DNA of 32,930 nucleotides from assembly GCA_024638655.1 (NCBI GenBank), contig JAHEJW010000024.1, positions 3,106 through 36,035 on the forward strand, written 5' to 3'. Below are positions 28,235 through 32,930 of the stretch, in pieces; position 1 is the stretch's first letter, and each line of letters begins with the position of its first letter. A model generated the notes under the pieces. It did not search any database. It saw only the letters and a program-made list of their open reading frames with translations, and was not told where the DNA came from. The DNA comes from a bacterium (lineage in GTDB: Bacteria; Actinomycetota; Acidimicrobiia; Spongiisociales; ZC4RG35). The translations under genes were made by a program, and so were the position numbers.

Positions 28235-30037
28235 ATGGGCACCCGCGGGGATAGGGCCGAGATCAGACGCGCGCGAGTCCGGCGTGGCCGGAGCCGCTTG
28301 GTCTCCTCGCCGCGCATTCTCGTTGTTGTCTTCGTCACGACTCTCTCGATGGGCGTGGTGTTCGCCCACTGGTCTTCGGAAACTGGCGCAGCGATGGAGT
28401 TGGCGACGGGGGACGTCGCTCTGAACGTAACCGGGGATCTGACGTTCGACTTCCCTGGTTGCGCGCCGGGCAATGAATCGACCACATGCGACAAGTTCGA
28501 AGGCAGCGACATCGGCACTTCGGACATATCGCATTCCGCAGACGGTGCGACATTCACCATCACGGGCTGGGTATACAAGGGCGGCGACTCATCTGAGCCA
28601 GTGGGGTTCTATTACACGATCACTGGTGGCACCGTCGACATCGTCGTCAAGTCAGGCAGGAACCTGGACCCGGCGACCCTTCCCGAGGGCTCGGGATACT
28701 GGCTGAACCCCGCCTGCGAGGGCGACCCTGGGCCTGGCAAAGCCGTCACATGCACACCCAAGAACACCAATTCCGTCTCGAACATCGAGTTCTGTGTCAA
28801 GGTTTCGACCCCACCCACATGTCTGCCGCTCATGCGATCAGTGGTGGCGTCCAACGTCGGTTCGATCCCGTTTGACCTGAACCTGTCGCTGATCGGCCCG
28901 GAAGGTGACGGGTCGGACTATTGCGGGGTCTTCGATCTGACGATTCAGAGGGTGATCGACGGCAGTCCTGCTGATCCTCCCCAATACGAGGGACCGCTAT
29001 GCGATCCGATCGGCGCGCCCTTCTCCCTTTCGGAACAGATCGATCCCGGCGGCTCGGAGGTCTACAAGCTGACCTTGGCCTTTGCAGAACCCACTTCCGA
29101 CTTCAACGGGACTACGGGCGGTTTCACGGTCAGGTTCCAGGCCACCCAATGGAATCAGGCCGGTGGCTGGGCGGATCTGGTCGATCTACCAATGGCCATC
29201 TCGGTGGGTGCTGCCCCACCGTCGAGTGTGAGCTCGGAGACCATCTCGCCAGTGACCTCTGCTCGGATCGTGACACAGACCGTGGCGGCTTTGGTCAACT
29301 CTGCGCTCCCCGCGGTCATCGATGTCCTCGGGCGCTCTGAGGTGACCATCACCTCTTGGGCACTCGATCCGTCGGATCCTTCAGCGGTTCTCGGCTTCGA
29401 GTTCACCGTGAAGGGCGATCCCGTCTACGTGGAGGTCCAGCGTGGAGCCCTGGGCTGGGTCGATGAGCGGTGGGAAGAGGAGAATCCACATGTCTGGCAC
29501 GACCCGTACGGGGTGGACTCTCCCGAAGCGAGGCCGATCACTTACATCGAATTCGCACCGGTGCCACTTCCCGAGGAGATCGCAGCCGAAGAGCTTCCGG
29601 CGGAGAAGCCGCCGGCCGAAGAAGCCCCGGCGGAGGAGCCGCCAGCTCCCGATCCAGCCGCGCTGAGCGGCATCGTCTGGCTCGACGAAGACGGCGACGG
29701 GGTGCGTGCGAGCACCGAGTCGGGTATGGCCGGTGTCGTGGTCCGTCTACTGGCCGATGGTGTCGTGGTGGCGACCATGACCACCGATGCCGGCGGGTCG
29801 TACAGCTTCCTCGACCTCGGCCCGGGCGATTACACGGTGGAGATCGAGGCGCCCACAGGTTACGTGTTCGCAGCCAGCGGTCAGGGCGGGGACCCGGCGT
29901 TGGACAGCGACGTTGCGCCGGATCCGGGCGACGGTCCGCAGACAGGACTTGCAGCGGTGTCCCTGAGTCCCGGAGCCAACTCTGGGATCGCCGACGCAGG
30001 GCTCAACTCGGCGACGACCGGGGGCAATGGGTCATGA
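28235..30037 (+). CDS. Exported SipW-type surface protein with C-terminal SdrD-B-like domain
   Basis: A 600-residue secreted protein. A basic N-terminus (residues 8-27) precedes a hydrophobic core and a SipW-like boundary FAHWSSETG (43-51). The exported region, about residues 52-315, is beta-rich, has eight cysteines, and contains the motif QWNQ at 305-308. A second beta region follows (about 335-445). A Pro/Glu/Ala linker (about 450-474, repeated PAEEP-like units) leads to an SdrD-B/Cna-like domain (about 477-590) with a DEDGDG calcium-binding-like loop. There is no sortase motif and no C-terminal helix. GGAGG lies nine bases before the ATG. Likely a fibre or adhesin component; specific function unknown. 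Confidence 0.82.
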   Translation: MGTRGDRAEIRRARVRRGRSRLVSSPRILVVVFVTTLSMGVVFAHWSSETGAAMELATGDVALNVTGDLTFDFPGCAPGNESTTCDKFEGSDIGTSDISHSADGATFTITGWVYKGGDSSEPVGFYYTITGGTVDIVVKSGRNLDPATLPEGSGYWLNPACEGDPGPGKAVTCTPKNTNSVSNIEFCVKVSTPPTCLPLMRSVVASNVGSIPFDLNLSLIGPEGDGSDYCGVFDLTIQRVIDGSPADPPQYEGPLCDPIGAPFSLSEQIDPGGSEVYKLTLAFAEPTSDFNGTTGGFTVRFQATQWNQAGGWADLVDLPMAISVGAAPPSSVSSETISPVTSARIVTQTVAALVNSALPAVIDVLGRSEVTITSWALDPSDPSAVLGFEFTVKGDPVYVEVQRGALGWVDERWEEENPHVWHDPYGVDSPEARPITYIEFAPVPLPEEIAAEELPAEKPPAEEAPAEEPPAPDPAALSGIVWLDEDGDGVRASTESGMAGVVVRLLADGVVVATMTTDAGGSYSFLDLGPGDYTVEIEAPTGYVFAASGQGGDPALDSDVAPDPGDGPQTGLAAVSLSPGANSGIADAGLNSATTGGNGS

Positions 30038-30101
30038 AGGGGTTTCTACGTGACAACAGAAGGGAGAGACATACGAGACGGAATCAGTGAGGGATAGGAG
30101 T

Positions 30102-30141
30102 GCGGCAATCGGGGAGCCGCCAAGAGGGCCGAAGACCCTCT
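30102..30141 (+). other. Two hairpins in the leader of the second SipW-type gene
   Basis: Between the first and second SipW-type genes, a five-base-pair stem (30102-30106 with 30116-30120) is followed by a perfect six-base-pair stem (30123-30128 with 30136-30141). The second ends eight bases before the GGAGG ribosome-binding site at 30149-30153. They may tune translation or processing. No known riboswitch consensus is visible. Confidence 0.4.
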
Positions 30142-30157
30142 GAGCACTGGAGGAAAA

Positions 30158-30988
30158 GTGAAAATATTCAGAAAACGAGGCACCCGTTCGAGTGTCGCGC
30201 TGTTCTCGGTAGCAGCGCTGGCCTTGGCAATGACGGGGATCCTCTACGCGCATTGGACCGACACGCTGGAGGCCCATGGGGTTGTGGAGACCGGTTCCAT
30301 CGACCCGCAGTGGACCCTCGAAGGGACCAGTGACGATGGCGTACTCAACTATGACGGGGACAGCGAACCGAGGCTGAGCCCGGACCTGGACCTCTGGGAC
30401 GACGATCCCCCGGAGCCTCAGACCAGCAGCGGCGATCAGACCTTGATCAACGGTGACTTACTCAACCTTTCCAAGGACGTGGCGAGGTGTACAGCCGAAC
30501 TTGCCGAGGACGAAGCCGGTGATGAGAACGACGCTCTGTTCATGACAATCGAGAACGGATATCCCAGCTACTACTGCCTGGTCAAGGCTGATCTGCACAA
30601 CTTCGGAAGTGTCCCGGTCAAGCTGCAAGGGATCGAGTGGGTGGCGATGAAGACCTTCGACGGTGTAGCGACTGATGTCGAAATATTCGAAGGGCCGACC
30701 CCCGATGGGTTCCAGTACTTCATCGACGCGGCACCCGATATGGACACCGATGTCGACCTGGAGTTCAGCTGGACGATCACCGATGACCTCGGGGACGATG
30801 TACTCCTCGATTGCGGCTATCAGCTGGATCCTGGTGAGGAGTTCAGTGTGTTCGTTGACGCTGAGTTCCATATAGATCAGGACGCAATGCAGGATGCCTT
30901 GTACGAGATCTGGATCGCCTACGAGTGGGTGAACTGGAACGAGTACGACGAATCGCTGTGCGAGCCCGCCATACTCGACCTCAGCTGA
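30158..30988 (+). CDS. SipW-type (TasA/CalY-like) exported protein
   Basis: A 276-residue exported protein. It has a SipW-like N-terminus: basic start, hydrophobic core to residue 31, then AHWTDTLEAHGVVETGSID (31-49). This resembles the Trp-[ST]-x-Thr-Leu...Thr-Gly pattern of TasA/camelysin-like proteins. The mature part is acidic and beta-rich with four cysteines (in ARCTAE, YYCLV, LLDCGY, SLCEP), and ends in a VNWNEYDESLC segment. The start is GTG at 30158 with GGAGG just upstream. It is paralogous to the next gene, 11 bases downstream. It is predicted to be surface-exposed, possibly fibre-forming; this is inference from the signal type. Confidence 0.82.
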   Translation: MKIFRKRGTRSSVALFSVAALALAMTGILYAHWTDTLEAHGVVETGSIDPQWTLEGTSDDGVLNYDGDSEPRLSPDLDLWDDDPPEPQTSSGDQTLINGDLLNLSKDVARCTAELAEDEAGDENDALFMTIENGYPSYYCLVKADLHNFGSVPVKLQGIEWVAMKTFDGVATDVEIFEGPTPDGFQYFIDAAPDMDTDVDLEFSWTITDDLGDDVLLDCGYQLDPGEEFSVFVDAEFHIDQDAMQDALYEIWIAYEWVNWNEYDESLCEPAILDLS

Positions 30989-30999
30989 GGGGAGGCGAA

Positions 31000-31773
31000 A
31001 TGAAGAGATTCGCCAAACCACAGGCTGTATTGCTCTCGGTGAGCATGGTCACTTTGGCATTGGCCGGTGTCCTCTACGGGCATTGGACTGACACTTTGGA
31101 GGCCCATGCGGTTGTCGATACCGGGGAGATCAAGGCTGGATGGATCACCGTAAGGTGTGTTGAATCCACGTTCCCAGGGGTTCAAGTAACCCCCGGACCT
31201 GGTGGTGGTGACATCACGGCCACCGAACCGGGATTCGTCGCTCCTCCTGAGTGGAGTGGCCCAACTCCAGACGAGAGCACAGCTGGCACTCCCTTCTGGG
31301 TATGGGAGACCAACAAGAACGTTGCACATCGGGCGGTACCTGCATTCCTCGATGACAACAGGACGGTCGAGTTGATGTGGTTCAACACCTATCCCAGTTT
31401 CACGGGAGACTGCGAGATGGAGTTTCGTAATACCGGGACTCTGCCAATCGCGGTCCCTTACCTGGTGATCATGCCGGGTGAAGAGACCACTCTGGCCAGC
31501 GATATTTTCGCCGACGACGGTGAGATCTGGATCGATTGGAGCAGTGGCACCCCACCCAATCTCCAAATCGACCCCGGCGAGAGAGAAACCGCCAGTCTGA
31601 AGCTGCATGTCGAGCAGAGTGCCGAGCAGGACCGCACCGGGGACGGCGCCTACACCTTCTTGGTGCAGGTCTGCTACCACAACTGGAACGAGCCGACCGA
31701 CGTCGAAGACGACGTCTGCGATCTATATGAAGAGGGTGACGGGAAGATCGTCATCCCGGACCCATTTAGCTAG
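31000..31773 (+). CDS. SipW-type (TasA/CalY-like) exported protein, paralogue
   Basis: A 257-residue exported protein whose N-terminus closely matches the preceding gene (LYGHWTDTLEAHAVVDTGEI at residues 25-44 versus LYAHWTDTLEAHGVVETGSI). The mature part is acidic and beta-rich, with four cysteines and a C-terminal YHNWNEPTDVEDDVC segment that again mirrors its neighbour, while the middle has diverged strongly. GGAGG (30991-30995) precedes the ATG by four bases; the gene begins 11 bases after the previous stop, so the two are one operon. It is followed by a strong hairpin terminator. No C-terminal anchor is present. Confidence 0.82.
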   Translation: MKRFAKPQAVLLSVSMVTLALAGVLYGHWTDTLEAHAVVDTGEIKAGWITVRCVESTFPGVQVTPGPGGGDITATEPGFVAPPEWSGPTPDESTAGTPFWVWETNKNVAHRAVPAFLDDNRTVELMWFNTYPSFTGDCEMEFRNTGTLPIAVPYLVIMPGEETTLASDIFADDGEIWIDWSSGTPPNLQIDPGERETASLKLHVEQSAEQDRTGDGAYTFLVQVCYHNWNEPTDVEDDVCDLYEEGDGKIVIPDPFS

Positions 31774-31797
31774 GAAGCAATACTGACTGGCCAAGAG

Positions 31798-31836
31798 TCG
31801 AGGACTGGTGGGCATCAGAAACCCGCCAGTCCTCGA
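31798..31836 (+). terminator. Strong stem-loop after the SipW-type genes
   Basis: A 15-base-pair stem (31798-31812 with 31822-31836, one G-U wobble) and a nine-base loop, 24 bases after the stop of the last SipW-type gene. No long U-run follows, as is common in GC-rich actinobacteria. It most likely ends the surface-protein transcript or stabilises its 3' end. Confidence 0.75.
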
Positions 31837-32047
31837 TTCACTCTGCGCGGACCGCTCCTCAGCTAGCTCAGAGTCCTCTGCTTCTTTGAGCTGATCCATC
31901 GGTAGCATCTGCGGCCCGTGACCACCATTAAGTCTTCTTTGTGACCCGGGCAGGTTCGCAACGAACGAAGCGAAAGGACACTCCTACCGACGCAGGCACT
32001 GGGCCACCGCAATCATCAGTGTGGAGGCGGCTAAAGATCATTCTGTT

Positions 32048-32107
32048 CGCCGGCCATGTAGGCAGACATGGTCGGCGCCGGCCACTATTCCCCGGCTCCT
32101 ACCGGGG
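32048..32107 (+). other. Tandem hairpins, candidate regulatory RNA or leader
   Basis: Two consecutive stems: 32048-32059 pairs with 32066-32077 (12 base pairs, six-base loop), and 32090-32095 pairs with 32102-32107 (six base pairs, all G-C). They lie about 120-180 bases before the most likely start of the signal peptidase. They could be a leader structure, a processing site or part of a small RNA. They match no family I know. Confidence 0.4.
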
Positions 32108-32225
32108 CCGTCACGCGCACGGCAAGGCTCTTCGAGCCGCGACCCAACCATTCGAGGTCGCCGCGCCGCCAGTCTCGATTAGTGGGGCGGGAGATCAGCT
32201 AGGCGCCACCGGACTGGCCTTGGGG

Positions 32226-32930
32226 ATGCTCGTTGCTGTCTGGTTCACACAACGTCCTCTGACGACCTGGACGAGCGGCAACCCCGGCCTCAACTTCTAC
32301 GTCGTCCAGCCGGTCATATGGTCTGCATTCGCCGTCCTCGCCTGGCGGCTCTATCGGCGACTCCCCGACGCTCTGCCATACAGCCGCACCCTCGCCCGAA
32401 TCGGGTTCCTGGCGGGCCTCTTCCAGGCTTCGGTCTTCATCCTCACCGGGCTCGCTGTCGGATTCGGTGACAACCCACTGGCGGGCGAGCTCGTCAACTA
32501 TCCCCTCAACGTCCTGTACTTCACGACCCTGGCCGCAGGCATCGAGCTGACCCGTGCCACGGTCTTTCACACGTGGCGACGAGTCAACGAGCCGGGTGCA
32601 TTCGTCGCTGTCGTGGTGCTGTTTGCTGTTGCGGCAATTCCGTTGGGACAGCTGGACTTGATCATCGATGTCGACACCGCCTTTCGGGTCGGGGTCGGCC
32701 GATATGTGCCCGCCCTGACGCTGTCGGCTGTCCTCACCTCGTTCACCGCCGGTGGCGGGATCCTGGTCTCTGCTGCCTACCGATGGCCTTTGCTGGCGAT
32801 GCTGTGGACGTTCCCGATACTCCCGAACCATGACTGGCCGGTTCAGGCCTTGATCGACACCGCCCTGCCGCTCCTCGCGCTGATCGTGGCTCGCACGCTC
32901 TACGAAGGCACGGCCGAATTCGCCCTGAGA
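32226..32930 (+). CDS. SipW-like signal peptidase I, N-terminal membrane domain (cut by window end)
   Basis: An open frame of 235 codons from the ATG at 32226 to the window end. It contains about six hydrophobic segments, with pieces typical of the N-terminal multi-helix domain of archaeal/SipW-type signal peptidases found in Chloroflexota and Clostridia: YPLNVLYFTTLAAGIELTRA, then SAAYRWPLLAMLWTFPILPN and WPVQALIDTALPLLALIVAR. In such proteins the Ser-x-Met-Glu-Pro catalytic region follows, which would lie beyond the window. Location after three SipW-type substrates supports the call. The start is uncertain: GTG codons at 31941 and 32019 are in frame, but none has a good ribosome-binding site. 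I recognise the family from memory, not from a search. Confidence 0.68.
   Translation, partial: MLVAVWFTQRPLTTWTSGNPGLNFYVVQPVIWSAFAVLAWRLYRRLPDALPYSRTLARIGFLAGLFQASVFILTGLAVGFGDNPLAGELVNYPLNVLYFTTLAAGIELTRATVFHTWRRVNEPGAFVAVVVLFAVAAIPLGQLDLIIDVDTAFRVGVGRYVPALTLSAVLTSFTAGGGILVSAAYRWPLLAMLWTFPILPNHDWPVQALIDTALPLLALIVARTLYEGTAEFALR

Follow-up and report, generated by a model that had tools for sequence, protein, structure and literature searches.

A probable surface-fibre locus related to an archaeal bundling pilus lies at the end of the DNA considered here, a 32,930-nucleotide stretch (the window) from a bacterium of the order Spongiisociales (Actinomycetota; Acidimicrobiia). The window takes in bases 3106-36035 of contig C38 (36035 bases) in a genome, G000, of 75 contigs and 2.87 Mb. 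Four genes, P1, P2, P3 and the start of P4, follow one another in that order on the plus strand (Table 1). Three encode predicted exported proteins, and the fourth a likely signal peptidase of the endoplasmic reticulum (ER) type fused to a membrane domain. The whole is read, with a probability of about 0.72, as an AbpX-like donor-strand fibre locus whose exported proteins are predicted to form surface fibres. At the level of sequence this is carried by a signal boundary with a fixed Gly register, the match of P2 and P3 to AbpX, an ER-type catalytic domain in P0001 (a protein that overlaps P4), and the linkage of the genes in relatives.

Predicted exported proteins and their archaeal relative

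Behind the hydrophobic stretch of the signal, P1, P2 and P3 have the boundaries AHWS, AHWT and GHWT. This shared SipW-like boundary in three consecutive exported open reading frames (ORFs) had been described in the first-pass annotation of the window, and it is present as described. In each protein the Gly of a Thr-Gly pair stands exactly 13 residues after the Trp (Trp+13). The same arrangement, a boundary Trp with Gly at Trp+13, occurs in 35 of 35 sequences, and the Gly is preceded by Thr or Val in 34. The set consists of the 21 sequences of alignment A5 (P3 among them), P1, P2, six further homologues, and two sequences each from L043, L095 and L096; the boundary of P0019 (YAHWT, same spacing) was read by eye from the alignment and the other 34 by script. 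A5 omits six of 27 homologues (P0026, P0029, P0031, P0032, P0034 and P0037), and the count of 35 includes them. Both His and Trp of the boundary are invariant within A5 (21/21). In a distant class the His is replaced by Trp or Arg and the Trp is kept. What the annotation took as an aromatic pair, His-Trp, is more aptly described as a single fixed Trp in position P2' next to a freer P1'.

The motif can also be searched for directly. The window has 316 six-frame stop-to-stop ORFs that are 60 amino acids or longer; scanned for a hydrophobic stretch, [AGS]xW, and Gly at Trp+13 with T, S, V or A before it, they gave P1, P2 and P3 and no other match. In 50 rounds with shuffled proteins the mean number of matches was 0.02 (maximum 1), a control that rules out an effect of composition and is no independent test of discovery, the motif having been tuned on this family. 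L021 and L081 likewise pass the scan. Elsewhere SipW-like boundaries are seen as GAWFTD (L081 1943-2677, genome G008) and AYWTA (L103 1253-1786, genome G508).

An aromatic residue at P2' matters for processing. As set out in the relevant part of one report (PMC10269814), LepB of E. coli cleaves proteins with an aromatic P2' inefficiently, none of 143 verified LepB substrates has one, and SipW, an ER-type enzyme, processes TasA, whose P2' residue is Phe. A cut between Ala or Gly and His would put the Trp of P1-P3 at P2'. By analogy, the chain start of AbpX suggests that P1-P3 would be cut just before His-Trp. The mature parts contain 8, 4 and 4 cysteines, even numbers as annotated; this regularity does not hold in some relatives, where odd counts occur (3 in P0037, 5 and 3 in L095, 4 and 1 in L096). 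The Trp-Asn-Glu or Trp-Asn-Gln motif annotated in each mature part was placed correctly.

By sequence comparison the solved relative of P2 and P3 is AbpX, an archaeal bundling-pilus protein, and not TasA. Searched against PDB sequences, the substrate profile A9 found AbpX (9sj2_C, E value 7.4e-8; 9rhp_A, 1.7e-5), and its alignment with 9sj2 takes in positions 28-58, which form the N-terminal strand, and 99-195, which belong to the core. With the narrower profile A5 the E values were 1.6e-5 for 9sj2 and 0.002 for 9rhp; a single relative, L096:1257-1760, matched AbpX residues 1-97 at E 4.8e-8. P1 alone gave no AbpX match among PDB sequences at E up to 1. The deposited chain of 9sj2 starts Q-W-S-E-T-L, with the same Trp-to-Gly spacing as P1-P3, and this start suggests a mature N-terminus one residue ahead of the Trp. 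The 9rhp chain carries this strand at its C-terminus, as a self-complementing construct would. AbpX resembles P2 and P3 in its subunit core and N-terminal strand, its x-Trp chain start and its Trp-to-Gly spacing. Unlike AbpX, the locus described here is in a bacterial host, its subunits are larger and have a conserved C-terminal Trp-Asn-Glu, and several different subunits occur in tandem. TasA, ABP and ABPx are all donor-strand-exchanged fibres according to the part of PMC11952670 concerned with them, and TasA fibres assemble through an N-terminal donor strand in the corresponding part of PMC9674648.

The annotation had called the locus one of TasA type, and the first alternative to consider is a standard matrix-fibre locus of the TasA/CalY (camelysin, PF12389) family that lies in an actinobacterium. 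TasA/CalY with SipW in Bacillus has the same aromatic P2', an ER-type peptidase adjoining its substrates, and predicted donor-strand assembly. The differences make this reading unlikely. No match to PF12389 was found in P1, P2 or P3 at E up to 1, and none to the NCBIfam models of SipW-dependent substrates in P1-P3 at that limit or in 21 relatives; one distant relative gave E 0.06 against TIGR04090, below the cut-off. The genome also has a PF12389 protein of its own (29.1 bits, cut-off 22.5) on another contig, C29 (L004 7304-8218). Directly downstream of it is a second TIGR02228 peptidase of the S26 family (L004 8235-9911, 80.2 bits) with a long C-terminal part, and only the catalytic part of that enzyme matches the membrane-domain profile A3. 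The C29 PF12389 protein, compared as a single sequence with profile A9, had no similarity to it (hhalign probability 0.5), so the two systems are taken as distinct. Membership of P1-P3 in TasA/CalY was rejected on the lack of a PF12389 match together with this comparison, and the solved chain that sequence searches found is AbpX, not TasA. A fold search with a structure model of P3 (mean predicted local distance difference test score, pLDDT, 78.4) gave common beta-sandwich matches only, which speak neither for nor against TasA or any other family. The P4-type peptidase differs from Bacillus SipW as well, having a multi-helix domain and scoring below the SipW equivalog cut-off. Of the annotated dedicated secretion and assembly system, the type of secretion, the peptidase, its linkage to substrates and a sequence basis for fibres stand, and the TasA/CalY family is not supported.

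The SdrD B-like domain annotated in P1 is clear (PF17210, E 3.9e-24, 85.4 bits, cut-off 29.7), and substrate profile A2 matches its signal segment (E 3.3e-5) and nothing in the rest. A P1 homologue of up to 752 residues on contig C26 of G106, a genome of the same order, supports a donor-strand fibre locus: it has an AHWT boundary with Gly at Trp+13 and an SdrD-B domain, and its body is 26% identical to that of P1 (E 1e-10). By eye, both bodies share the landmarks of P2 and P3, namely Gly-Ser-Ile-Pro, Gln-[Ile/Leu]-Asp-Pro-Gly and Gln-Trp. Directly after this homologue, at the edge of C26, is a gene start resembling a P2-type signal. A second contig of G106, C16, opens in gene direction with the end of a P2-like gene, followed by a gene of a third type (see below) and the fused peptidase. 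C26 and C16 may adjoin, which would give the order of the window: P1, P2-like gene, peptidase. P1 is a putative minor tip or surface-contact subunit; a role as cap or anchor is a guess.

Alternatively, P1-P3 could be SipW-processed adhesins or surface-layer proteins that stay monomeric after export, their shared N-terminus serving as a processing signal only. The filaments proposed here are themselves predicted, and the SdrD-B domain of P1 is as in staphylococcal adhesins. The domain recurs in many other long frames across the order: P1 has a match in 60 of 138 genomes, among the matches listed nearly all on the SdrD-B part only. Against monomers, the conserved segment extends 13 residues past the Trp, further than a peptidase would be expected to read, and keeps exactly the register of AbpX, for which the deposited chain begins at this point. 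Unlike staphylococcal SdrD adhesins, P1 has a SipW-type signal and, judged by eye from the translation, no sortase-type C-terminal tail. Monomeric adhesins are likewise improbable.

The probable signal peptidase and its membrane domain

P4 can be followed for 330 residues before the window ends, which is also the end of contig C38; the assembly has no further sequence past 32930. A 380-residue protein, P0001, on a contig of 1437 bases is 100% identical to P4 over 71% of the query and continues into the catalytic part with GISMEP, FIHRI and TKGDN. The Ser-x-Met-Glu-Pro motif that the annotation expected past 32930 is thus found in an overlapping protein, and its SipW-like signal peptidase with an N-terminal multi-helix domain is borne out by the ER-type S26 catalytic part seen there. 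P0001 scores 69.9 bits against TIGR02228 (cut-off 51.85); the window's own fragment stops before this part. In the assembly itself, a search for the missing half of P4 with profile A3 and with P0006 matched the C38 fragment and the C29 peptidase only.

Against the Bacillus SipW equivalog NF046067, P0001 has 44.9 bits, the cut-off being 190. For PF10502 (cut-off 22.9), P0001 (19.5) and P0010 (20.8) are below and P0006 (23.8) is above. All 13 aligned sequences have the Ser (GISMEP), His (HR) and Asp (GDN) motifs unchanged. The catalytic pair is Ser and His, not Lys, and the best solved relatives of the catalytic part are SEC11C (profile E 5.7e-10) and SEC11A. The P4 family is likely an ER- or SipW-type S26 signal peptidase behind a multi-helix domain. 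It has the same Ser, His and Asp motifs as ER-type and archaeal signal peptidase I (TIGR02228, SEC11). Unlike these it has an N-terminal multi-helix domain of about 250 residues that belongs to no library family. A tblastn search of plasmids with the L096 peptidase gave 17 records, and the 15 matches listed cover the query only from residue 270 onwards, the catalytic end.

A weak model of the peptidase (mean pLDDT 57.8), of too low quality for a fold search, has about eight long helices before the helix that enters the catalytic part, and a hydropathy scan of P0006, P0002, P0010 and P0039 gave four or five clear membrane-domain segments. The P4 fragment had no match in Pfam or NCBIfam at E up to 1, three relatives had none outside peptidases at E up to 0.1, and a search of PDB sequences with the membrane domain gave nothing up to E 10.

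Linkage and distribution of the genes

Profile A2, whose source sequences come from G000, G055 and G129, matches six of the 138 genomes of the order, with G106, G130 and G109 being new to it. The membrane domain (profile A3) is present in seven, the same six and G036; 25 others match A3 only from position 276 on. In each of the six substrate-matching genomes the membrane-domain gene follows downstream, without a change of contig. In G000 and G109 the peptidase gene comes directly after the substrate, and in G055, G106 and G129 one gene of a third type lies between. The core motifs of this third type are related to those of the substrates; in G055, G106 and G129, where the start is seen, its signal looks ordinary and has no x-Trp boundary. 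For example, L038 9264-10751 is of exported type, contains a DUF11 domain, ends in a hydrophobic tail and has relatives in L007, L039 and L043. As to conservation of the four genes as a set, the linkage of substrate match and membrane-domain gene holds throughout the six, and among the matches listed a P1 homologue with a similar body was seen in G106.

There are two exceptions to the full arrangement. G036 gave no substrate match, and its fused peptidase lies in two pieces at the ends of two contigs. In G129, which is 76% complete, the membrane-domain frame (L043 3385-4191) ends before any catalytic part, and the genome has no other A3 match; this stand-alone gene is downstream of two AHWT substrates.

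Beyond the order, the membrane domain was found in 395 genomes of the class only in the same seven. Among 396 genomes of the phylum, five match it (G000, G598, G713 and two marginal ones) and four match profile A9 (G000, G598, G713 and one marginal one), the three named genomes having supplied rows of A9. G598 and G713 are the only two among 36 genomes of another class to have the membrane domain; their gene order is again exported proteins with an x-Trp boundary, then the fused peptidase. The fused peptidase of G598 (L095 4018-6504) continues past its catalytic part into C-terminal domains of the immunoglobulin-like and fibronectin type III kinds. Weak membrane-domain matches in G488 (E 4.2e-4) and G517 (E 5.6e-4), at loci whose larger ORFs showed no S26 gene, were dropped, as was G508 (E 7.7e-4) as a substrate match, in which only the signal and first strand aligned.

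Two observations count slightly against a donor-strand fibre locus: the substrate match of G130 falls within the third-type gene, at a contig end, and residues 231-306 of the G598 protein match the NCBIfam SemiSWEET model at E 2.2e-4, with 21.4 of the 100 bits of its cut-off. The latter, together with the G129 membrane domain that has no catalytic part and the G036 one that has no detected substrates, would fit a membrane domain that is the main player, a transporter or other enzyme fused to a signal peptidase with the exported proteins as accessory binding proteins, but six of six substrate-matching genomes keep the membrane-domain gene beside the substrate and the library and PDB searches above gave this domain no match outside peptidases, which makes such a role very improbable.

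The host assignment is consistent with what the annotation called an actinobacterium-like genome, and agrees with the same-order relative L007 (G055), Actinomycetes bacterium isolate Ww199. Of two contig scans for the locus, the first was without a match and the second gave one locus, L007. A contig end lies in or directly beside the locus in six of the seven order genomes with the membrane domain, G129 being the exception. Such ends are those of the window (32930), the starts of L007 and L040, C16 and C26 of G106, C55 of G130, and C96 and C55 of G036. It is as if repeats or strain variation at the locus broke the assembly.

Table 1. Features of the locus, in positions of the window
Feature	Position	Strand	Description	Basis
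P1	28235..30037	+	600 aa, SipW-type signal, C-terminal SdrD B-like domain; predicted exported	ORF
P1 predicted signal peptide	28235..28366	+	residues 1-44, predicted cut after Ala44	AHW boundary; AbpX chain-start analogy
P1 predicted donor strand	28367..28411	+	His45 to Gly59 (Trp46+13 = Gly)	boundary motif
P1 Trp-Asn-Gln	29150..29158	+	residues 306-308	translation
P1 SdrD B-like domain	29666..29941	+	residues 478-569	PF17210
P2	30158..30988	+	AbpX-like subunit, 276 aa	ORF, profile match
P2 predicted signal peptide	30158..30250	+	residues 1-31	boundary motif
P2 predicted donor strand	30251..30295	+	His32 to Gly46	boundary motif, AbpX alignment
P2 Trp-Asn-Glu	30935..30943	+	residues 260-262	translation
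P3	31000..31773	+	AbpX-like subunit, 257 aa; start at 31000 inside ORF 30925-31773	profile match
P3 predicted signal peptide	31000..31080	+	residues 1-27	boundary motif
P3 predicted donor strand	31081..31125	+	His28 to Gly42	boundary motif, AbpX alignment
P3 Trp-Asn-Glu	31684..31692	+	residues 229-231	invariant, 21/21 aligned sequences
P4	31941..32930	+	N-terminal part of membrane-domain S26 signal peptidase, truncated by contig end	open frame
P4 multi-helix membrane domain	32103..32930	+	no library family	Pfam/NCBIfam scans

Proposed assembly and its meaning

For a donor-strand fibre locus of this kind the following course can be proposed. The Trp at P2' would make the precursors poor substrates for ordinary signal peptidases, just as TasA with its aromatic P2' is a poor one for LepB, and the linked ER-type enzyme would therefore be the one to cut the substrates, between Ala or Gly and His. 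The cut would free an N-terminal strand, from His-Trp to Thr-Gly, that could then enter the beta-sandwich of a neighbouring subunit. The membrane domain may hold or present precursors near the membrane, coupling cutting to polymerisation. A tentative extension, possible but on balance doubtful, is that the membrane domain is an unnamed bacterial assembly platform that docks precursors while the peptidase releases the strand, which would go straight to the growing fibre in a single step, making maturation and polymerisation one coupled reaction; in G129 it would work with another peptidase.

Fibres that assemble by donor strands and have an ER-type peptidase of their own are known. New are the host group, the relationship to AbpX and the fused membrane domain. 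The literature searched reported no such actinobacterial locus, in a search that did not extend to the original descriptions of archaeal bundling pili. If the proposal is correct, a fibre type solved in archaea would also occur in actinobacteria, with a dedicated peptidase fused to a membrane domain. It would provide a testable account of the way in which such fibres are initiated at the membrane without chaperone and usher, as well as a signature by which such loci may be found: x-Trp, Gly at Trp+13, and an ER-type peptidase downstream.

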